This document shows, piece after piece, positions 17,129-53,875 of a stretch of 64,000 bases of DNA (position 1 is the stretch's first letter; each line of letters starts with the position of its first letter). Source of the DNA: Isoetes taiwanensis. Taxonomy: Eukaryota; Streptophyta; Lycopodiopsida; Isoetales; Isoetaceae. Position numbers and translations under genes: made by a program. The stretch lies in assembly GCA_021234155.1 (NCBI GenBank), contig JAJEKV010000005.1, forward strand, positions 9,976,572 to 10,040,571. The letters run 5' to 3'. The notes under the pieces are model-generated. The model was given only the letters and a program-made list of their open reading frames with translations. It was not told where the DNA came from and made no database searches.

Positions 17129-18945
17129 TTAACTATACATCTTCAATACATCTTCTGCTTCCCTTTCCCACCATCTGGAAAATTCAAAGACCACTAAATA
17201 TATCAGACTCATAATCATTGCAAAACAACCTGCAATTGTGAGCAGATAAGATACAAGTTTACAGTAACCTTTAGATTGCTCGGCAACAAATTTCTCAAAT
17301 TGCAATCTATCATGCTCATGAAGTAGATATATTCCAGGTTCTGGCTTGTAAGTTAGACAAGCCAAAGCTATGACAGAATCTAATGATATCACTATGTCGT
17401 CTAACAAGTCAAATGTGTACCAACGGGTGAAAGCATGCTAGGGTGTACCATCTAAAGTACTTTTTAGGGAGTGCGAAACTACCCAAAAAAGTACCCAACA
17501 CTGGGTACTGGGAACTTGCATAAATGCCACAATAAATAATAAGTTTGAGAGTTAATTCATTTATTTTAGTCTCTAATAGTATTGTTATCCTCTAGTACTA
17601 TAGATTGGCATGTTACTGACCTTCAATTCAAAAAATTTCGATCGATTTTAATGGAAAGAAAAAACAGAAAGTACCAGTTTTAAAAGTACCCAGTGTAGGT
17701 ACTTTTGAGGGTTCCAAAAGTGGTACACCGTAGCATGCTTTTACCCCAACATTTTCTTCTAGACTTATGCTCATTATACCATGCCAAGTTAAGTTCTACC
17801 AAATAGGATGGTCTGGAACTTAGATCAATTGCTTCCCTACTTTCCTTCCAGCCCCTACCAACTTTCCTTCGAATACTCAGAATCCTTCCCAAATACCAAG
17901 TTCTCTTTAATAATTTCTGCTTTGCACTAACTATCCGCCTTTTGTTGCTCGGGCCTACCTCAAAGAACACTCGCACAATCGATCCAATGACAAGAGCAAA
18001 GGGTGGGTGCATTGATCCGCTTTGTTCTTTTCGGGTCCAATAGAATATGAGTTTTAACTTTGGTCAGTCTATCCTTCGAGAGCCAAGGATTCCCATTAAG
18101 TTGACTAACTAAAGTGGCCTTGTAGACTTCTTTATTGTCTATCTTCACAAGTCTTTCAACTTTCATTTGGTTTGGGTGCTCTGCCTCATCCACCATGGCA
18201 TCAAGTGTATGTCTTAACTCCATCACTGCTGCTATCTCCTCAATGTTTTTTGCAGCCAAGCCTTCAGCACCCTCATTTTCAATCTCCACTTCAACTCGAT
18301 CAGACTCATCTTCAAACTCGATTGTATCTAATTGCTGGAGGTAGTTCTTGTTAAATAGTCTTCATGCTTCCAAGGACAATTCCACCATATGTCAGCTCCT
18401 GTCTTTTCACAACAAATGCCAACTCTCAAACATATCCCCTGTGCTTCTTTCATCCCTTCCTTTAAAGCATGCACAATTTTATCTACATTGTCTACCATGC
18501 TGTAATCTCCTAGATCACAAATGATTTCCTTACCATCAAGTCCAACCTTCTTTTCTAAAACTTGCCATATGTTTTCCTGCTTCAAATGGGTAGCAGGGAA
18601 CAACAATTTCCCAAGAGCCTGAAACTCTGCCACTCTATTCAAAGCACTTGTTGTTTCAAGCAAGTCTGCACCTGTATATGACCTTTCATTTTGGATCATG
18701 CCGCCCACTTTACTAAAAAAAATTTCACAAGCATCTGAACCCGTGCAACTCAAGGGAAGAGAAATGTCATTGCATTTTTCACTGAAATAATTTATCAACA
18801 TCACAGCAAAATGACATGATAACTGTATGTCAAGAAAAGTCTCACGGCTTATAAAGTTCATCTTCAAAGTGTGTGTTGGATGCCTAATTATCCACAGCCT
18901 CCACAACCTTTGAGATTGCAACAAACCAAACAAAAATCTTAGCAA
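17129..18945 (-). pseudogene. Transposase-like protein pseudogene, split by a MITE
   Basis: Reading right to left, the frames give RHPTHTLKMNFISRETFLDI, LPLSCTGSDACEIFFSKVGG, ERSYTGADLLETTSALNRVA, then DLGDYSMVDNVDKIVHALKE and ICLRVGICCEKTGADIWWNC. After a frameshift near 18345 comes an acidic linker and MDEAEHPNQ-like sequence. A second shift near 18010 leads to TWYLGRILSIRRKVGRGWKE and PSYLVELNLAWYNE. The frame then meets the 322-bp MITE at 17746. Beyond it the same frame resumes with WYTFDLLDDIVISLDSV and ends at 17129 after a hydrophobic segment. The TGSDACE...FFSKVGG block recalls large uncharacterised plant and animal transposon proteins, but no superfamily is assigned. The start is not identified. 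Confidence 0.55.
17425..17746 (-). mobile_element. 322-bp MITE of the GGGTAAAAGCATGC family, copy 1
   Basis: Its ends are GGGTGAAAGCATGCTAGGGT and the inverted GGGTAAAAGCATGCTACGGT. CAAC lies on both sides (17421-17424 and 17747-17750). Removing the MITE and one CAAC restores an open frame in the host pseudogene (SRRKC|WYTFDLLDD), which proves the insertion. The interior holds several GTAC-core motifs (AAAGTACTTTTT, GGGTACTGGG, AAAGTACC). It shares termini with the 9.7-kb element at 44154. Confidence 0.9.
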
Positions 18946-40063: not shown

Positions 40064-41727
40064 CAATGCCATATACAGGCTGTATGAGAGTTGTTTTGGC
40101 AGGATGTAGCCGACGGGGCAAGCATTCACCAGTAGTATCGGGGTCCGGCAGGGCTGCTCCCTCTCACCAACACTTTTTGGCCTCTACATTGATCAGTTAG
40201 AGCCATGGCTTACTGAGCATGGGGGGGATGGCATACAACTTTTGCACCAGGTCATCCGCCAGCTCATCTATGCGGATGATGTTGGGGTAAAAGCATGCTA
40301 CGGTGTACCACTTTTGGAACCCTCAAAAGTACCTACACTGGGTACTTTTAAAACTGGTACTTTCTGTTTTTTCTTTCCATTAAAATCAATCGAAATTTTT
40401 TGAATTGAAGGTCAATAATGTTTATTGCGACATTTATGCAAGTTCCCAAGATCAGTCTTTGGGTACTTTTTCCGGTAGTTTTGCACTCCCTAAAAAGTAC
40501 TTTAGATGGTACACCCTAGCATGCTTTCACCCGCTGACCTTCCGCCCACACCCCGTGCTATGCGCCTCATCTAGATGCCCTAGACACATTTTGTCGCTAC
40601 GCACATGCGCCAAGCGAATCCGCCAAGACCGTGGTGGTCCTCGATCCTCTTCACGCCACCCCACGCCCTCCTGCACTCACATATCGGGGGATGGCCCTAT
40701 GGAGGTCACGCCACCTACAAGTACCTAGGGGTGGAGTTCCCCTCCTCGCTCTGTTGGGAGCCCATCCGCTTCTGGGTGACAGGCCGAAAGCTTTATGCCA
40801 TGCGTATCAACAAATCCACCGTGCAGAGCTCTATGATTGGGGCCATCACACATCTCTGTTTGCACCGGGTCGAGCCCGTCCTTCCAGACGGGTCGGTTTG
40901 GGGCCCTGGCCGCCTCTTTGGCGACTGGAATGACTTGGAGCAAAAGTGTGTAAGGCATTTTTGCACGGGCACGCACTGGGTGAAACCTTCACCCCTATCG
41001 ATTCTCACGGCAGAAACTGATTCTTTGCCGCTTCGCTGGCAGCCCTTGATAGACACATCTTCTATTTTCGTAAAGTGGTTAATATGGGTGATGCTCGCCC
41101 CCGCACTGGGCTTACGCCGGGCAATGGGGCCGCAGCCGCTCCGTGGCCCGCTGGAGGGTAAGAGAGATCGCTGGTTCGCCCGGATGGAACGCGTCAGGAG
41201 CACAGTACATGCAGGACATTGCACGCGCAAAGCCTGGACACAGAGGCCGATCGTGATTGATCATGGAGTACCTAGACGCTTGCTTCCTTGGCAAGATCTG
41301 GGACCCCGGCGCTCTAGAGCAGGTCAAAACGGCCCATTACAAGGAGCACATCAACCCCATGTTAGCTCGGGGCCCGCAGCTCTACCTGCGTTCCCAGCCC
41401 CCCGAAAAGCGCAAGTGCAGACTCATTGCCTCCATTCGCGACAAAGTGCCCACCATCTTCGTGATCGAGATCGGCGTGGATTGGGAGCCCCCCGCCAGAC
41501 AGCACTGGCCGCTCTTTGCCAAACGGGTGCCATTGAGGATGAGTCTCACACTTTCCCAGAGTTGCCCAAAGATTCACCAGATCCGGCCGATATTCTCCTT
41601 TAGTAATGGGCCGGACTTGCCCCTACATTTGTTGATGAACACGCCGTTAGTACGTGCTCTGTGGTCGTACATTCAGGAGGTACTGGATCTGCGAGCTCAC
41701 CTTTGCCCCCGCCTGGCTGCCCGCTGA
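40064..41727 (+). pseudogene. LINE (non-LTR retrotransposon) ORF2 fragment: reverse transcriptase to C-terminus
   Basis: The sequence starts inside the reverse transcriptase (NAIYRLYESCFGR), shows SSIGVRQGCSLSPTLFGLYI and RQLIYADDV, and is then cut by a 248-bp MITE. Beyond it, in shifted frames, are LDALDTFCRYAHAPSESAKT, YKYLGVEFPSS, MEYLDACFLGKIWDPGALEQ, HYKEHINPMLARGPQLYLRS and an EDESHTF zinc-binding-like tail. The last stop is at 41727. The catalytic YADD is present. The 5' part (endonuclease and early RT) is missing, which is typical of 5'-truncated LINE copies. Several frameshifts and stops (for example after FGRM) show it is dead. Confidence 0.8.
40285..40532 (+). mobile_element. 248-bp MITE of the GGGTAAAAGCATGC family, copy 2
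   Basis: The ends are GGGTAAAAGCATGCTACGGT and the inverted GGGTGAAAGCATGCTAGGGT. It is flanked by GTTG (40281-40284) and GCTG (40533-40536). It sits directly after the YADDV codons of the LINE. It is the reverse complement of the 17425 copy over most of its length, with about 74 bp less in the middle. In transcript orientation both copies have GTTG before the same end. Confidence 0.88.
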
Positions 41728-44025: not shown

Positions 44026-44513
44026 CTGTTACATACACATGTGTCAACGATGAATGTAAGCATAAAACATGGTAAAATCAAACTCTTTCTAAGTTCTAGA
44101 TGGCATAAGTTGAATCTAGACTTAGGTTTTTGTATGTAAAAGGACTCTCTTTTGGGTAAAAGCATGCTAGGGTGTCATACATTAGTTCTAAATTCATGTA
44201 CTATTTTGCACTAGAAACCCATTTTTTTATGTAATTTTGAATGTATGGTAGGAGGCCACGTGCTTGTCGTTATATATTTAAAAAAGGAATATATTTGATT
44301 GTTTGTCATCATGACATGAAGTGGCCGACGGTTGTTGCGAAATTTTGGGCACAATCACTGGATTCCCTCCGATCCAAGCAAATTCCCTCCAATCCATCCG
44401 AAGCAAGCAAATTCCCTCCAATTTACGGTCTAAGAATCTAAAACAAAGAAAAGAATTTTAAATTCTTGCCGGATCTTTGCATGCATATCAGTTTTCATAG
44501 TAGTAGTAGTGGC

Positions 44514-47500
44514 ATGGCACAAGAAAATCAAAGTATAACCGGTGATTCTGAAATCGACAAAGGGAAGCAGAAAATGGTTGAACAAGATACTCTAAATGAC
44601 ATGCTGAATGAAGTGACAGAGAGTGATACTGTCAACAGTGAGAATAGCAGATCATATTCCAGGTATTTCACCAAAAAAATCAGGAAAAGAGCAGAAAAGG
44701 TTGTTGAATGCTTTAGAAATGAAGCCGCCTCTATCTCCGGTGAAAGAGAGGTATTGGTTTCCGTGGATCTTGCAAGATAACAGGCTCTTGGGGTTGTTTA
44801 AACCTCGTGATTGGGCTACCTTCGTAGCGGTGGTGAAACATTCATTGTTACAAAATCTCAAAGATGGATTAGAAGAGGTTAAATCTTCTAATAGCAGTGA
44901 CAAGTTGGCAGCCAAGCACTCTGTTTTATCCATGATTGTTGGGAAAAATGGGGAATTGAAGCAAAAAGGAGTTGCTTCAAAAATGTTGAACTGCCATCCT
45001 CGAAATTTGTCATACGCTGCAGGCAGAAGAAAGAGAATGAAAATTGCAGGTCCAAGTATATGGGCATTAGCAGGCAGAAAGAGAAGATCTGATTGTTTGG
45101 ACGAAGACACAAAGCAATTAGTCATCCAATTTTGGTTAAACAACACCAAGGTTTCACCTAAATACAGGGATGTAAGAAAGAAAAGGCATCAGGCAATCCA
45201 GTTTCTTGATATACCACAGGTATTTCATTCTTTACTTTGTGAAATGCTTCTGATCCCTCATGTATATGCTCATTTTTATTGGAATTTATAGTATCTTCTT
45301 TGTTTTGATGTATGAATGCTTTCTAATGACTGATCTATTATTTATGTATTCACTTTTACTTACTTTTACATATGCAATCACCTTTATTGGTTTGCTTACA
45401 TTTATTGACCATGTATATTACACTAAATCTTCCTTTCTTATTTATGCAGTGACTCCAAAATTCTTAAGCAATGTACAGATTAGATATTTGCATAATATTG
45501 TATGTTATACATGTCTATAGAGTACATATCTTGTACTCGACTTTCGATAGTGCCTATGGACTTCAAGAATCTACTCTAGAACATTAATATGCTCTAGGGT
45601 ACAAGAATGTACCCACATCAAGCATTTTATCCTTACACACGATTTAATGTACATGTGTAATGTATATTCCGTTGTCCTTATGTATATTGTAAGTACATTC
45701 CGAACATTCGAAAGTACATTCTCGAAAGTACATATGAGTGCATATGAGTACATATGAATGCATACGAGTACATCCGAAAGTACATATTAGTACATTATGA
45801 GTACATGTTAGTACATTTTGACTCATGATGTACTCAATTGCACATACAAAATCTTTTATTAACTATGATGATTTGAATGCACAGCCGAAATGCACTTAAC
45901 TTTGTGGAGCAACACCCGTGAGGCAGACATTGGCATCGATTGTTCAATACCTCAAACCTGATTGTGTAAGGAAGCTAAAGGAAAGAAACACATGTTGTTG
46001 TGTCAAGCATGAGCAAGCAGAGAACTTCAGGAAGGCATTTAATTCTATGAGGGCTAAGCTTCACATCAATTGTAGCTGCAATTGTGAAGTTTGTGCTGCT
46101 AACAAAAATGATGGAATTTGTCAGGCTCACAAGCATACATACTGTAATGTCAGCACTCTATGGAGGAGTATGGTTTGTCCAAAACAGGATAGTGACGAGT
46201 GGCACAAATTAAATTGTATTACAAGTGATTGCAAGAACTGTGGTAAGAAGAACATTAGCTTATGTCCAAAAGAAACTGAAAATGACATTGAAAGTAAAGT
46301 CAATTGGCAAATATACTCTTATGTGGATGAGAAGTCTAAAAAAGGAGTCTCAAGAAGGCTCAGATTGGTGGAGAAGACAACAAATGCACCTGTAATGCTG
46401 GATGCCATGTTTGGTCACATGAAGACATTTATCCATCACAACTTTGCAGCTCACTGGCAAAGCAAGGAATTCAGAAGATGTGTTCAAAACCTGAGAGATG
46501 ATTCAGTGATATCAGTGGTTGATTTTGCGTAAAAATTATACATTGAAGCCTTTCAAAGAGGTTCAGTCGTAACATTGGAATGCGTACCAAGTTACTATAA
46601 TGGTACAGATTACCATGTCAAGGTAAATGGCATCTTGAAGAAGATCGCTCACTTGTATATTTCGATGACAGAAATCATGATACACATTTTGTACAACATG
46701 CATTTAAGCTTCATCTAAAATGGCTGAAAGAGAATGGTGGATCTCATGTACAAAGATCATATTGTGTGGTCCGATGGTCAGGCCGCACAATACAAGTCCG
46801 TAAGAAATTCATATTTCATTACCGTGTACTATGTTGAATATGGCATTCGCTTACAATGGAACTACTTTGGGCATGGAAAAGGTGAACATGATGGAGAGTC
46901 CGCCAAGGCCAAGGTGTACTTGCAACAACAACATTCTTGGTGAAACATGGAACGTAGATTAGAGGTGCACATGATGCTTGTGTTGTCTTGAGGAGCAAGC
47001 AATCTAATGTTGACAGAGTATACCGGGAAGTGAAGGAGTCGATATTGATAGAACCAATGCATTGATGTGCAACCTCTTCCCCGGTATTCAAATTGCATGC
47101 TATAGCTTCTATAAGTCCAACTCGACCCCACCTTAGTAATGGTGAGACCATTATCTTGCTTCTGCAATGCTTGCATTAACTTTGAATGGGATGCTTGTGA
47201 GTCCATTTCATTCTGTGGGAAGTGGCAATTAAAGAAGCTAGTACCCCGAGTAAGTACTCATTGTGAAGTAGAGAATGAGGAAACCGCTTTTTTGCAAATG
47301 AAAATGAAGAGCTAGAAGATCTAGTACAGGTAGGTGATATGTTTGCTTCTTTTGCTGCACTAGGAAATGAAGAAAATGTGCCATACTATATCCTTCTTTG
47401 CAAGAAAATAAAATTTGTTTTGCAGGAAAATGTTATTGACGATTACAAAAATTATCACCATACAGTGAAACAAATCATATCCGCCAGATTACTATCAAAA

Positions 47501-47701
47501 TTGCCCGGTTGTCACCACAAGTATAAGTTATTGGATGACAAAGAAGTTCTTGTACCGCAGAGTCTCATTATTGGAGCAAAGTTTGCAATGCCAAAAGTAA
47601 ATCATAAGGTGAAGGGTGCTTCTGCAGCTTATGCATTGTCTACTGATGTGCATGAGATGCTACTGGGAAGTCTGCCTGAAATGCTACATGATCTGGAATA
47701 G
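44514..47701 (+). pseudogene. DDE-type transposase with VVDFA / WSDG / HGKG motifs
   Basis: From MAQENQSITGDSEIDKGKQK, with a basic stretch, the frame shifts near 44720 to WFPWILQDNRLLGL and the DNA-binding-like region. There it reads HPRNLSYAAGRRKRMK, RRSDCLDEDTKQLVIQFWLN and TKVSPKYRDVRKKRHQA. A donor (CCACAGgtattt, 45219) opens an intron to about 45895. Next come YLKPDCVRKLKERNTCCCVK, a Cys-rich segment (CSCNCEVCA, CITSDCKNCG), VISVVDFA (first Asp), NYTLKPFKEVQ, DTHFVQHAFKLHLKWL, IVWSDGQAAQYKS (second Asp) and WNYFGHGKGEHDGESAKAKV (third acidic residue). The end is KLLDDKEVLVPQSLIIGAKF and LHDLE at 47701. Frameshifts occur near 45940, 46530, 46620, 46740 and 46945. The family is found widely in eukaryote transposon-like proteins but I cannot name its superfamily. 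Confidence 0.78.
45590..45840. repeat. AGTACAT motif array (left), mirrored at 51590-51800
   Basis: About a dozen copies of AGTACAT/GTACAT lie in 250 bp, inside the transposase intron. A similar cluster of TGTACT/AATGTAC motifs lies at 51590-51800, in an intron of the minus-strand gene. GTAC cores also dominate the two MITEs. A role as internal protein-binding sites is inference. Confidence 0.6.
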
Positions 47702-47854
47702 CTTGAACAGATTATATGTTGGACAGATTATATGTTGGAGAGAAATCTGAAAAGAGAAAAGTGCAGGAGTAACATGATTTATATTACATTGTAATTGAGT
47801 ACATCAACTTATTTCAAAACATGTTTCTTGTTATTGATAACTTTATAGAATATA

Positions 47855-48190
47855 TCAACTTCTTTTATGCCTAACTATTACATCCTGTGGTGGCTGAAAT
47901 CTCATAGGTATTGCATCCATTCTCCTAAGATTTCCGGAGCGCCATATAATGTTAGGACTAGCTGTGGCAGAGGCCACTGCTACTTCTCTTGCAATTGGAA
48001 GCCCACTCCAGCCCTCACGCAGCGCAGTTGACTCGTGCGCACTTGGCAACTGATTCCTTCCCCAAGGATCAGGATCATAGATCTTGTGAATTGCCCAAAG
48101 TATTGTTAGCATCTCATCCCCGGTGCTTCGCTCTTCGATCCGCTCGACTGCTCCCATAATCCGGTAGGTCGGTAAGGAATCTTGCTTCAT
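47855..48190 (-). CDS. Unassigned open frame in the transposon
   Basis: The reverse-strand frame of 111 codons reads AVERIEERSTGDEMLTILWA, IHKIYDPDPWGRNQLPSAHE and ASPNIIWRSGNLRRMDAIPM. It has protein-like composition but no domain I recognise. It follows the FCP1-like gene by about 300 bp on the same strand and could be its last exon or a separate small gene. Confidence 0.35.
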   Translation of the reverse strand: MKQDSLPTYRIMGAVERIEERSTGDEMLTILWAIHKIYDPDPWGRNQLPSAHESTALREGWSGLPIAREVAVASATASPNIIWRSGNLRRMDAIPMRFQPPQDVIVRHKRS

Positions 48191-48487
48191 ACATTAAGCC
48201 ACAAGAGAATGGTACATCCGAACATATTCCCGCCTTCAAATCCCTAAAGTAGAAGGTGGTTCATCCGTTCAACCTCTCGCTCCCATGTACATGTACAAGT
48301 TCCTTTTGTTCCGTTCAACCTCTGCCCATGTATAAATTCCTCTTCAATTTCATTTTCCTCAACTTCTAATCCAATAACAAAAGTTAAAAATTATTAGCAT
48401 TTTAAATCTAAAACTTCCTCAACCTTAAATATTAATAATAGATATAATTTAACAAGTACTCAAAAGAGTTATGAAAGCAAATCAACA

Positions 48488-49165
48488 TCAAGAAAAGTTA
48501 CAAGAAAAAGTATTCAGCTTGATCAAAGGCATTGTACATAGGGCCTTTATTCTGTTCATATCTTCGCCGTATTCATCCACTATAGTCTTGATGATAATGT
48601 CACCATATATGTCCCAAGAGTCATCCAACTTATGCTCCTTTATGTAATTGGTAAAATCTGGTGCATATTTCAACCCTACCAACCAATCAAATAAGAAGGA
48701 CAGCTGGTTGTCGCGTTCTATCAAAGGTGTCCATAGTGGCACACAAACATAACTTTCTTTGTTGAAAAGAGCTTTGTGTGCTTAGACTCAAACACACCAC
48801 AGAGTCGACCATTGTATTTAGGATATTCAATGACAATACTATCCATAGGTACTACTTGAGGAGTTACACCAACTGAATTTGTGTAAGGAAGTCCCCAACA
48901 TCTCTCTTTTCCATAAACATGTTTAAATTTTGGGATGCCATCTTCATAGAGCTTGTCCAAAATTGATGTTATGATATCTAAGGTAAGAGTTGACCATATG
49001 GCCAAATCCCAATGAAAGGAGGCATATTGAAGCATTGCTTTCATTGTTGGTCCGCAGTAGAAAACTCCATGTTCTCAGAATTATGGGCTTGTAAGAGGAA
49101 ATATTCATTCCCTGAGTTCTATAAAAGTAACCCGTAACACCTTGGATCTCAAATATTAGGAGTCC
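48488..49165 (-). pseudogene. FCP1-like HAD phosphatase domain
   Basis: Reading right to left: GLLIFEIQGVTGYFYR (position of the HAD nucleophile motif, where the DxD is not preserved), SSYKPIIL, frameshift, HGVFYCGPTMKAMLQYASFH, WDLAIWSTLTLDIITSILDK, FKHVYGKERCWGLPY, FESKHTKLFSTKKVMFVC, frameshift, PLWTPLIERDNQLSFLFDWL, YAPDFTNYIKEHKLDDSW and a stop at 48488. The order LLxxDxNG, YKxP, WDxxIWSS, xxYGxExC, YIKEH is that of plant FCP1-homology HAD proteins related to RNA polymerase II CTD phosphatases. Loss of the catalytic aspartates and two frameshifts make activity unlikely. It may be a captured host gene or a true transposon gene. Confidence 0.55.
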
Positions 49166-49323
49166 CGTAAGGAAGCAAAATATAATTAACATACAAGAGC
49201 ACTAGGATTGCAACCATTCATTGATTACATTATCAAGATTACATAAAAAGCCAAATGGCTTAGTGTTGTTTCCAATAAGAAAAAAGCCAATTGGCCTCAT
49301 TTGATAAAGAGTTATGAAAGAAG

Positions 49324-52300
49324 TTAAGCACTACCATGCTTCTCTTGCGAGGTGCTAGTAGTGCCTGTTTCATTGAGATGGCTCTTATAATTAATCATAG
49401 CCTTAATGAGCACATGTCTCCCCGGATCGCATATACTCCGTGATCAAACCAATCTGAAGAGAACTGAAAGAATGAAAACAAATAGTTTTCAGAATTAAAT
49501 ATTATATAAAAAGCAATTGTGTATATGTTATCTCACCATGCTCTTAGCTTGCACCTGGGCATCCACAAAGGCTTGCATATAAGCCATGACATAAAGACCA
49601 CAAGAAGCCAGGTCACCTTGTTGTGGAACCTCAGGTCTAATTTCTTTTCAGACCAATTCTTTACATAAATATCAATCTTACGAGAACTGGAATTAGTCAA
49701 TGCTGTAATGATATCTTTATGAAGCCTGCAATAGAAAATAACATCAGAACTATGAAGCATTACACTGAATTAATAGTGAGTGCACTTACATCATAACCAT
49801 CCTCGTGTCGACCTGCACATTCTTTAGCGAGTTCAGAATAAGGATAGCTGGAGAAGACAAAGGGGTGCTACTACAGTTCTTGGCCTTATCTAAAACAATG
49901 ATGACTAGTGCATGGTGCATAGGATCCTCAATCTGGATTGGAATCATAATATACTGGCATTTGCTCAATATGATTCCCTGAAGCCCTTTTTGAACTACAT
50001 ACCAATCCAGATCGTACCATCGGGTTGCATCGATGACGCTTTGTTAAAGGTCGCTCAGAGGGCTAAGAAATTCTCTGAAGGGAAGAAAAAAAATGCATCA
50101 CGCCATTTGTCAGGCATAATGCTAATCAGATACCTATTCACAAAGAAAGTGAGGTTAGATGTTCAGTAGTTAACCATAATGCCTTCCAAATAGTTACCTT
50201 CCAAATATATCTATATGCCTGTTGGACATGTGCCTGTCTCTGCAAAGACCTTCCACACAATATTTAGTCACTTTGATTAGAGGCTTTTGCTGGAAAGGGT
50301 AGCATGGAACTATTTTCAACAAGCTCTCCAGGTCTCTGTAAAACAGACTTGCATTATTGAGAGACAAATGAATTGCAACTACAACAGAATCTTACTTACT
50401 CTCCTGTGCTGTCATCTCCAGATCGAGCACTTTCAGATGATGTTTGGCTTCTAGTCCTGCAGAAGTCATCATAAAATTGTTCAGATATTACACTTCAAAA
50501 GCTTCAATTAACATAATAAATATTCACCTTTTTGTTGAAGTTGTATTTTGCATGCACTCCTTCCTTTTTCTTGTCTGCTTCTCCTGTTTAACAACCTTGG
50601 TCTCCTCAACCTTGGTTTCCTCTATGTCATCAACCTTAGTGGCCTCAACCTTTGTTTCCTCAACCTTTGTTTCCTCAACCCTGGTTTCCTCCACTGCCAC
50701 ATCATCCTTTTGGATCTCTTGTACCTCCACCATCTCTTCCTCTCCCTTAATATGGCTACTATCCTCTATCTTTTCAATGGTTGCCTGAACAAAGGCTGCA
50801 GAAGATTCACCAATTTCCAACACTTCTGCATAAATTAGTCACCAAAGTCAATCAGTATTGTGGATCCTAATTTTAAGTTAATGGTATACCTGTTGAATCA
50901 TCAGTCAACAGCATTTGAATTTCCTGCTGAAATGATGGCATTGGCTTAATAGGTTTCCAAATTGGTTTCTCTGGAAATTTGTATTGTGAAGAAAGCCCTG
51001 CAGACTCTGGAACTTTATAATTGAAGAAGAAAAACTTGAAGAACCTATAAAAATGGTGTTTAATAATTGCAAAGACACACAAGCAAAAAGAAGATGCAAC
51101 ATACCCGCAGATAACTACATCGCCTCGCTTTAACTTTTCAACCTCTGCTGCATAATCCACAAATGTTCGAATCGGTATGCTCGTGGCTATATGGAATTCC
51201 AAGTGACATATCAAGCTCATATGACATGAAAATTAAATTCCAGGGATTGTAAATCAATCAAATGTGATATTTACTTACATGTATCCGAGGACTTCACTGG
51301 TACCTCAAGCTCTTCCTCAAAAGACTTTACAAGGTTTACAGGTGATGCCCATGTAGAAGTATTTCCCAAATCCTCCTGACCTTCTGTCAAATCCAATACC
51401 TTGGAAGAAAGTGTTGTTGGCTTCTTGCTGTCATCTACAATAAAGAGTAGAAAAAGACTTGAGATAAGAAAAGGAATATGCATGATTAACAAGACTACAA
51501 TATCATACCCTTTTCTGGTTTCCTTATGCTACCAAAATCACCTGCATCAGTCAAACATTGAGTATATCAGATCATCAACTAAGAAATGTATTCTCAATGT
51601 ACTCTACAAGTACAGTCAATGAAAAAATTAACTGACAATGTACTCCAATGTATCCATCTGATAATGTACTCTGATTTATCATGTAAATGTATCCAATGTA
51701 CTGTTGAAATGTACTGAATGTACTCTGAAATGCATTGTTCTGAAGTACAATCAATGTAAACAAAGCTAGCTGATATTGTACTTTGCCCACTGATGAGTCA
51801 TGAAGTATTCAATAATAACTCAAAATGTAATTTTGACAGCAACAATAGCAATGTATCTGTCAATTGCTACACTATACAGTTCTCAATAACAAGTAATTAG
51901 CTACCTACATTACTGAGCTGATGAGCACATGAAATTAAAAACTCTCATCTTTAAAAATAAGTAGTCTATTTGGCAGATTATACATGACTGAACCCACATT
52001 ATCCAACTACAAAAACTATGTATCTAAATACTCAATGTAAATGCAAGCCTAAAACCTTCATGCAAAAAAGAATCTAACTATTAAAATAAGAAAAGAAATT
52101 GTAAATTAAATGTACATCTACTAACCTTTTGTTGCAAGCAGTCCAAGTGCTACAGGCAAATTGCTATTCCATGAGCAGTCAGGATCAACACATGAAATCT
52201 TTGTGCTAGCAAGATAGGATATACACAGCAGACAATAAGGGTGTCTGCAGGGTGCCAGAACCACTGGATTCACACCAAAAGATTGCTCACAATATGTACA

Positions 52301-52945
52301 TGAAGAAAAAGGCTGAACAATAATCTGATCTGCAAGAATTGTAGACTGGAGAGGAGGGGGCTGTAAAGTAAGGATCGAGGAATGTTCTAAAAATTCCCTG
52401 AGTTCCATAATTTTTTTGTCTCCTGCCTCAGCTGAGCTCATATCAACAGATGTAGCTTCAATCTTTGCATCTACATGTTTCAATTCGGTAAGATTCATGT
52501 CAATATGTTTCTGGAGCTCAGCCTGATCCTGCATTCTTGATTCCTTTTGCTCGATAGCATCCTCAACTTTCCATTTTAGGTGCTGAAATCTTATGGCACT
52601 TTCAGATGTTTGGTCCAGTTTTGATTGTTGATCCTCCAATGCTGCCATTTTTGCTTCAACATTCCTCTCTGCTTCCTGGACCAACCTGATATAAACTGCT
52701 CTCTCCCCTTCCTTGTGCTTCAATGTATCAAGGATCTCTTGCCTTCTTTCCTTTAACTCAGTTAATTTCTTGCTTAAAGATGTTTTCACAATAGATCTGC
52801 TGTCTAAGAAGTTACTGAAAACTTCTAATTGCTCCTTTGTGTAACTCTTAGCTGAAGTTCTTGGGGCTTTTGCATTTGCATTGCTAGATTTCACTGTCAC
52901 CACCTCACTAGATAGATCCGAATCCTTTTGCTTCGATCCGCCCAT
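49324..52945 (-). pseudogene. RING finger / coiled coil / Ulp1-type (C48) cysteine protease gene
   Basis: A multi-exon minus-strand gene. Exon 1 (52945 to about 52125) starts MGGSKQKDSDLSS. It continues with a long charged coiled coil, then a RING-like finger with CTYC, then CRHPYCLLC, then CVDPDC. It ends at AAAG|gttagt. Small exons with good GT/AG sites follow: GDFGSIRKPEK near 51520, DSKKPTTLSSKVLDLTEGQE near 51430, SIPIRTFVDYAAEVEKLKRG near 51180, and FPEKPIWKPIKPMP near 50960. An acidic exon at 50823-50524 repeats VEETK. The protease part is LESLLKIVPCYPF, RWYDLDWYVVQKGLQGIILS, QYIMIPIQIED, MHHALVIIVLD (catalytic His), ILILNSL (Asp position, here Asn), then after a frameshift EVPQQGDLASCGLYV (Gln and Cys). 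It ends RHVLIKAMINYKSHL near 49324. Ulp1 enzymes cut SUMO-like proteins. Stop and frameshift changes suggest this copy is inactive. Confidence 0.72.
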
Positions 52946-53002
52946 GCTTTGACATCTTCCCAAATCCCACTTCGCACCTTTCGTGATGCAATGCAAATGC
53001 CC

Positions 53003-53356
53003 TTATGGCATGAGAGGGACATAGTGATTCATAACATCTTTTCTTCCAAAAGCAAACTCATACCATTTGCAGAATTCTTCTGTCCACTTCATATCAATTC
53101 TGTCATCCTTATAGCCATACCTGCTTGGTGCTTCATCACCCCATATCTCTCTTACCATAGCATCATACCGCTTTCGTAAACATCACAAAAAATTCAGGTT
53201 AATCCGAGCTGTCTTCTGTAAAAACCCGGTATCATCGGTGGTAAAATTTCCCTTTGGCATGCGAACTTGAAGCTTTCTTATTTGTTTGGAGGCTTTCCTG
53301 GTCCTTGGAGACTTTCTTGAACCCTTGATTGGCGTCTTCTTTGGGGTCTTTGCCAT
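53003..53356 (-). pseudogene. Basic-tailed small protein upstream of the RING/Ulp1 gene
   Basis: One frame of 118 codons starts MAKTPKKTPIKGSRKSPRTR, is broken by a single TGA at about 53183-53185, and continues RKRYDAMVREIWGDEAPSRY, WTEEFCKWYEFAFGRKDVMN to a stop at 53003. The strongly basic head suggests nucleic-acid binding. The second half is aromatic and charged. It ends 58 bp before the RING/Ulp1 start on the same strand, so it may be the true first exon of that gene or a separate subterminal gene. No family is recognised. Confidence 0.45.
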
Positions 53357-53875
53357 GTTTACAGTACCTGCAAAATGAACAAAGCAACAAATTTGATTTC
53401 ATAAGATAAATTTGCCCGAAATATTTGAACATCAGACCGTAAACCAAACGCATTGTTTATATTCATGTTATACCTACATCGATTTAGCTTGAAAAATACC
53501 GCTTTTCAATTTTTAATCCATAGAACCAGTTCTGTTACTTCTTGAATTCATTTTCGGACTGAAATCACAGAAAATTAAAACTACAAAATAAAGAAAACAA
53601 AACTTACAGGGCAGATCACACGGATATGCAGTGTTCCGAGCCGATTCAAACGTTCTTAGCAGTGCCAATTTTCGGAAAACAAACCAATTCTTGCTCCACT
53701 CGGTTAGCCAAGAAACAGGGGGAACAAAATGGAGGGAATTTTTGGTACACTCGAATAATGACATTTTCTTTAATGATGGCAATCAAAAACTTGCTATAAT
53801 TAAAATACATAACGTTATATGTAATGTATTCGAATGGCCCTTTTTTTTATCACCCTAGCGTGCTTATACCCTTTT

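Follow-up and report, generated by a model that had tools for sequence, protein, structure and literature searches.

The 64,000-nucleotide stretch of the Isoetes taiwanensis genome analyzed here (contig JAJEKV010000005.1, positions 9,976,572 to 10,040,571; hereafter the window) contains a single 9.7-kb DNA transposon at positions 44154-53871, which has matching ends, is flanked by a TTTT duplication, and carries two convergent genes. The pieces of gene 1 lie on the plus strand (44514-47698) and belong to a transposase, while the pieces on the minus strand (48491-53398) encode RING, Ulp1, and FCP1-like domains and probably form a single spliced gene, gene 2. We consider it moderately likely that this transposon lineage carries a selected accessory protein, the product of gene 2, which would be nuclear, engage the SUMO/ubiquitin machinery, and probably relieve silencing. 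The element belongs to an autonomous-type cut-and-paste lineage with ends beginning GGGTAAAAGC, 4-bp duplications, and related short elements sharing its ends; gene 1 supplies the DDE transposase, and the gene 2 protein, maintained by selection together with the transposase, would benefit its own element through the host machinery and probably counteract the silencing of that element.

The terminal inverted repeats (TIRs) agree at 19 of 21 positions and are accompanied by matched subterminal blocks rich in CTCC, bearing out the bounded unit, the paired blocks, and the convergent gene arrangement proposed in a preliminary description of this DNA. Because two short elements elsewhere in the window terminate in this same end sequence, and because its pattern, with up to three mismatches, occurs six times in the window versus zero times in 100 shuffles, this terminus is a real transposon end, common to miniature inverted-repeat transposable elements (MITEs) and associated with 4-bp duplications. 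Two further MITEs are nested in copies of the 9.7-kb element, with the duplications AGGT and TTAA, and three of the four MITEs have exact duplications. As read by eye, the MITE at 40285-40532 interrupts an open reading frame (ORF) for a reverse transcriptase resembling those of long interspersed nuclear elements (LINEs) at its YADDV motif.

The unit recurs many times in the searched genome (1,658,258,908 bases in 1,110 contigs). Its left end (247 bp) gave at least 229 first-look candidates and its right end (300 bp) at least 192; the best 40 of each were scored and are 96-100% and 94-100% identical, respectively. At left ends, 23 stretches of 9.3-10 kb were taken (the 20 best left-end matches after the window's own and three with both ends close). 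The right end was located in ten of them, the other 13 being broken by insertions or deletions or extending past the stretch. Both ends could be read in 11 copies, the window's included, and nine of these show exact 4-bp duplications (TTTT, TATG, CTAA, GGAA, ATAT, CTGA, TATA, AACA, and AGGG), with three of four bases agreeing in copy L009 and a damaged end in copy L011. Aligned together with L020, in which no right end was located, the 11 copies yield pairwise identities of 90.4-96.8%. Nested insertions are present in several of the fetched copies, a point in favor of reading the genes in the window as separate insertions lying side by side by chance. We give practically no credence to this explanation: full-length copies from unrelated loci, each with its own duplication, carry identical content within identical ends and thereby refute it.

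This picture is extended by L043, which represents a second subfamily and is complete. It is 9,653 bp long, has the ends GGGTAAAAGCACGTTAGGGTG on both sides with identical TIRs, is flanked by TAAT/TAAT, carries the CTCC-rich subterminal block at both ends, and has the same gene order and strands as the element in the window. Amino acid identity between the two amounts to 63% (exon 1) and 53% in the best stretches of the transposase, 50-56% in Ulp1, 41% in FCP1, and 35-40% in the RING/coiled-coil part. The preliminary description had called for related copies in this genome; further ones that share this content and bear 4-bp duplications are found, a divergent one among them. In all, 13 exact duplications were read (nine family copies, L043, and three MITEs).

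Table 1. Features of the 9.7-kb element and of related MITEs, in window coordinates.
Feature	Position	Strand	Remarks
MITE, same TIRs as 9.7-kb element	17425..17746	+	CAAC/CAAC duplication; 9 GTAC sites
MITE, same TIRs	40285..40532	-	flanks GTTG/GCTG (3/4); within LINE-like ORF; 7 GTAC sites
Target-site duplication, left copy	44150..44153		TTTT
Left terminal inverted repeat	44154..44174	+	GGGTAAAAGCATGCTAGGGTG
Subterminal block, left	44409..44424	+	AAATTCCCTCCAATTT
Transposase exon 1	44514..45234	+	one frameshift near 44719
Transposase intron with GTACAT array	45235..45880	+	11 forward and 4 reverse sites, most within 45521-45816
Transposase exon 2, DDE core	45881..47698	+	DFAENY, WSDGxxAQYK, HGKGxxDGE; frameshifted in window
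FCP1/NIF-like domain, C-terminal exon of gene 2	48491..49160	-	acid residues replaced
Ulp1/C48 peptidase domain exons	49327..50340	-	Cys, His, Gln kept; Asn at Asp position
Acidic linker exon with 15-bp repeat	50527..50838	-	VEETK units
Gene 2 intron with GTACAT array	51545..52118	-	7 forward sites and 1 reverse relative to gene strand, most within 51597-51724
Coiled-coil + RING exon	52124..53002	-	C3HC4-type, 8/8 ligands
N-terminal basic region of gene 2	53186..53398	-	matches L043 at 65% across 22 residues (E 0.002)
Subterminal block, right	53726..53741	-	94% complementary to left block
Right terminal inverted repeat	53851..53871	-	
Target-site duplication, right copy	53872..53875		TTTT

Gene 1 encodes a two-exon transposase of the DDE type, with two Asp and one Glu on an RNase-H-like fold, the topology of which is seen in the AF2 model of its relative P0003. 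Frameshifts are present in the window's transposase; in other copies, exon 1 is open as a 294-aa ORF (L012 and L021) and exon 2 as a 629-aa ORF (L026). No Pfam family scores above its cut-off for the transposase. In the protein database, a composite of the transposase found one match and a two-sequence alignment seven, that one included. Among these matches, the only two named relatives are from the fern Adiantum nelumboides (P0002 and P0006). A Foldseek search with the P0003 model returned no match at E ≤ 0.001. The relatives P0003, P0004, and P0007, which look animal-like, are without a Pfam match above cut-off.

The Ulp1 domain of gene 2 is recognized by profile. While the raw ORF gives a weak C48 match (E 0.0011), the spliced composite reaches E 9.3e-11 and 42.4 bits against a Pfam cut-off of 20.7, and a PDB search matches SENP7 (E 5.7e-4). 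The FCP1-like domain in the window stays under the Pfam cut-off (NIF E 0.0062), as do the domains of the window's family and of L040/L041 (relatives at E 7.9e-4 and 5.1e-3); its profile A4 found nothing in the PDB, L041 alone gave weak matches only (E 0.22 and 0.3), and P0010 had no match. A RING finger has eight zinc ligands, and the RING in the window, although also under the Pfam cut-off, contains all eight; two in-frame stops lie upstream of its 293-aa ORF. A concatenate of RING, Ulp1, and FCP1 had no match among the 7,999 protein database entries scored.

At the end of the Ulp1 exon stands G|GTAGT, directly before a stop codon, the FCP1 exon starts after TTACAG, and the same donor and acceptor occur in the same phase in the divergent subfamily. 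Because these splice signals are shared by both subfamilies, RING, Ulp1, and FCP1 probably form one gene with a single protein product. The donor GT is conserved in 11 of the 12 aligned copies and the acceptor AG in nine; the acceptor of the window reads TTACGG. The junction is in register in four copies, and in the other five with the acceptor AG the start of the FCP1 exon is one base longer or shorter at the CAG site. A start of the FCP1 part at FLTGLL was dropped once the acceptor TTACAG was recognized. The coding 15-bp repeat of the acidic linker spans 50592-50706. The preliminary description had listed a RING/Ulp1 protease and an FCP1-like phosphatase beside the transposase; the modules are indeed present, with the refinement that they probably constitute one spliced gene and that the domains are weak in the window copy.

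Genome-wide, the co-location of the two genes was assessed by FCP1, and the FCP1 gene of L043 matches at least 60 other genomic places with an identity of no less than 75% (a manual count, one per place). Divergent transposases were represented by the best 70 of 13,348 candidates scored, the L043 transposase itself falling outside these, and 38 such places were compared by hand, leaving out copies of the window's family, worn ones included. By coordinates, a convergent FCP1 lies within about 5 kb at eight of the 38 (C1034:24430499, C1033:16283006, C257, C1041, C952, C1032:9031539, C1018:21186622, and C1045). The other 30 have no convergent FCP1 among the matches listed, which is weak evidence of absence. 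At one of these 30 (C1048:5119749, transposase identity 55%), which serves as a third locus, the 3 kb that were read contain a convergent FCP1-like ORF of 27-29% identity. It carries a LIDDE motif and is the sole relative to pass the FCP1/NIF profile (E 3.4e-12; 46.8 bits versus a cut-off of 21.8), with UBLCP1 as its one PDB match (E 2.2e-6). Neither Ulp1 nor element ends were seen in this stretch, a Copia-like gag lying beyond the FCP1-like ORF; this gag ORF was read by eye at L045:2354-2998. Consequently, the prospect of transposase copies lacking these neighbors, against which the preliminary description had measured its proposal, is contradicted by L043 with all three modules, by FCP1 at the third locus, and by the eight places above, and it may still apply to the remaining places, which are without FCP1 among the matches listed. 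The notion of three separately bounded insertions does not hold.

Comparison of the window's family with L043/L040 indicates constraint on the Ulp1 and FCP1 parts of gene 2. The ratio of nonsynonymous to synonymous substitution rates (dN/dS) for Ulp1 is 0.11 (149 codons, bootstrap 0.06-0.23); as these codons are the stretches that align without frame breaks (149 of 251 residues), the value is biased low. The analyzed part of transposase exon 2 yields the same 0.11 (228 codons, bootstrap 0.05-0.18), while part of exon 1 gives 0.27 (170 codons, bootstrap 0.17-0.42) and FCP1, less constrained than Ulp1, 0.42 (203 codons, bootstrap 0.24-0.64). Some of these segments approach saturation at synonymous sites. 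Even given the segment bias, Ulp1 hardly resembles a passenger. Plant transposons are described as capturing host exons, Ulp1 included (PMC13317346; our statements on this and the other cited papers refer to excerpts), and the loss of acid residues in both FCP1 and Ulp1 would suit a captured host gene set that is merely carried along. We nevertheless regard such a passenger as very unlikely, given the purifying selection on Ulp1 and FCP1, an order, strand, and position that agree between two subfamilies with transposases 53-63% identical, and the FCP1 beside the transposase at the third, more distant locus.

Two introns of the element contain dense arrays of GTACAT. Shuffling predicts 0.49 occurrences per intron, and none of 500 shuffles reaches the observed 11 or 7 of the transposase intron and the post-RING intron of gene 2 (Table 1). 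Counting both strands, the density is 23 and 14 per kb in the introns versus 0.78 elsewhere in the window, and two coding controls contain zero and one. The motif is also enriched in the same introns of L043 (four forward and seven reverse in the transposase, six and one in gene 2), with a difference in motif between the subfamilies, AGTACAT versus GTACATA. Array counts vary among the copies (8-12 and 0-9 for the two introns). Further, GTAC sites are enriched in all four MITEs tested (6-10 each; 0 of 500 shuffles each).

The arrays may serve as cis sites that draw the gene 2 protein or the transposase to the copies of the element, comparable to VANC on VANDAL. VANC21 binds YAGTATTAY motifs, which form one-direction arrays in introns and other non-coding parts of VANDAL21 and change through tandem repeat turnover, and VANC proteins are also reported to have tandemly arrayed peptide motifs (PMC5735166), comparable to the VEETK units of gene 2. 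Dense short-motif arrays in non-coding regions are likewise a feature of the Isoetes element, as a likeness only. By this analogy, a lycophyte lineage could have evolved VANC-like anti-silencing independently: a partly pseudo-enzymatic RING-Ulp1-FCP1 protein, steered by GTACAT, would strip silencing from the copies of its family, the motif drifting with the protein between subfamilies, and the GTAC sites in the MITEs would perhaps steer it too. We hold this specific version to be rather unlikely, its odds being lowered because one L043 intron array is not one-way.

Alternatively, gene 2 could serve transposition itself, with a protein that stabilizes or activates either the transposase or the complex for strand transfer, and with arrays to which the transposase binds. 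This would agree with an Ulp1 constraint equal to that of part of the transposase, with the GTAC enrichment in MITEs, for which trans-supplied proteins suffice, and with the fusion of Ulp1 to the transposase in Ginger1 (PMC2836005). However, the arrays are not subterminal, as they lie roughly 1.4-1.7 kb inside the left end and 2.1-2.3 kb inside the right, and the CTCC-rich blocks near the ends are better candidates for binding sites; overall, we hold a role in transposition to be rather unlikely.

Besides the low bias of the Ulp1 ratio, several observations weigh against gene 2 as a selected, silencing-relieving accessory factor. First, its catalytic residues are altered. The active site of Ulp1/C48 peptidases consists of a His-Asp-Cys triad plus Gln, and at the Asp position we find Asn in the window's family, where readable, or His in L043; in three of the 12 aligned copies the Cys is absent from the chosen frame as well. 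Active FCP1/NIF phosphatases carry a DxDx nucleophile motif, which is replaced in LLIFEIQGVL (window's family) and LIIFDLQGIL (L043 subfamily), and VFESKHK or ITDLPFK stands at the position of IDDERYK in the third locus. Because the Ulp1 Asp and the FCP1 acid residues are replaced, enzymatic activity of both domains is doubtful in the window's subfamily, and the protein may bind instead of cutting or dephosphorylating. This weakens the action on SUMO and RNA polymerase II suggested in the preliminary description, the lone PDB match of the FCP1-like relatives being UBLCP1. Second, a complete RING is present in four of the 12 aligned copies (window, L012, L028, and L039), the others being frame-broken or changed, and the ligands of L043 are not all readable. 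Third, 29 of the 38 divergent transposase places have no FCP1 among the matches listed. Lastly, arrays of this kind can spread through slippage alone. The L043 transposase-intron array is, by eye, partly owed to internal duplication, this intron is the mixed one among four of which three have a prevailing direction, and AGTACAT is absent from both window MITEs.

In the open-access literature, to which the search was confined (subscription papers and Repbase entries lay outside it), no element with transposase, RING, Ulp1, and FCP1 was found. Ulp1 domains in DNA transposons are known from Ginger1 and Mutator elements (PMC2836005), and in part of the VANDAL elements the VANC gene includes Ulp1, these being the KIU forms (PMC13317346). 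Because of these precedents, of the layout proposed as new only the RING-Ulp1-FCP1 set is unusual. Sola, including Sola1 of Physcomitrella, shares with our element a DDD transposase, 4-bp duplications, TIRs and a size within the reported range, and occurrence in seed-free plants, and differs in that the excerpts mention no RING-Ulp1-FCP1 gene (PMC10741241, PMC9033089). The 4-bp duplications typical of Sola were read in nine of 11 family copies, L043 (TAAT), and three of four MITEs. Sola is a candidate superfamily by duplication length and by its occurrence in moss. Ginger1 has in common with our element 4-bp duplications, introns, and an element-encoded Ulp1, but its duplications are specific for CCGG/CCGT, its ends are TGTNR, and its Ulp1 is fused to a Gypsy-type integrase (PMC2836005), while the Isoetes element has GGG ends and its Ulp1 in a separate convergent gene. 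Membership in Ginger1 was rejected, as the ends begin GGGTAAAAGC and the nine duplications are other ones. Kolobok and KolobokP share RR..YY ends, and KolobokP has duplications of 3-5 bp; Kolobok differs by duplications specific for TTAA, and KolobokP by long terminal direct repeats and a homing endonuclease (PMC9587614). Membership in Kolobok was likewise rejected, since one of the 13 exact duplications is TTAA (the MITE in L027).

Mutator-like elements (MULEs) make duplications of 8-11 bp. Assignment to Mutator/VANDAL was abandoned in view of the 4-bp duplications and of a Pfam search in which no MULE match appeared at E ≤ 1 or 0.5. Molecular detail on transposons that defeat host silencing comes from few systems, VANC in Arabidopsis among them. 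VANDAL elements with VANC/KIU resemble the Isoetes element in combining a transposase with an accessory gene, in Ulp1 (KIU forms), and in dense intronic arrays of short motifs (PMC5735166, PMC13317346). VANDALs are non-TIR MULEs, in contrast to the Isoetes element with its TIRs, 4-bp duplications, and different transposase, and for VANC the excerpts mention neither RING nor FCP1 (PMC5735166, PMC13317346). Array binding and demethylation are demonstrated for VANC and would be predictions for the Isoetes element. The likeness is, by analogy, one of plan, not of descent. If the proposed function is correct, a second, unrelated lineage, in a lycophyte, with a selected Ulp1 accessory protein and intronic arrays would open convergence to testing. 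It would also point to modules of the SUMO/ubiquitin type as recurrent tools of DNA transposons.

The apparent decay of the copies has a probable technical component. Among the 12 aligned copies, 1,251 short insertions or deletions (indels) relative to the majority were counted, those shared by descent more than once. Within 3 bases of CWG lie 52.9% of them versus 14.4% expected (3.7-fold), near CG 22.7% versus 7.0% (3.2-fold), and near CSG 12.7% versus 3.4%, while there is no enrichment near homopolymers (6.3% versus 7.5%). The ratios for the control motifs are 1.18 (GWC), 0.92 (AWC), 1.35 (CTNAG), and 0.37 (TWA). The Isoetes taiwanensis assembly was built with Nanopore reads among others (PMC8566536). 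Because the indels cluster at CWG and CG sites and Nanopore reads were used, many frameshifts are probably basecalling artefacts at methylated cytosines of a methylated family. That the window copy looks "dead" is therefore no safe evidence of death, and Nanopore errors at methylated sites may, it seems, give a well-kept element this appearance.

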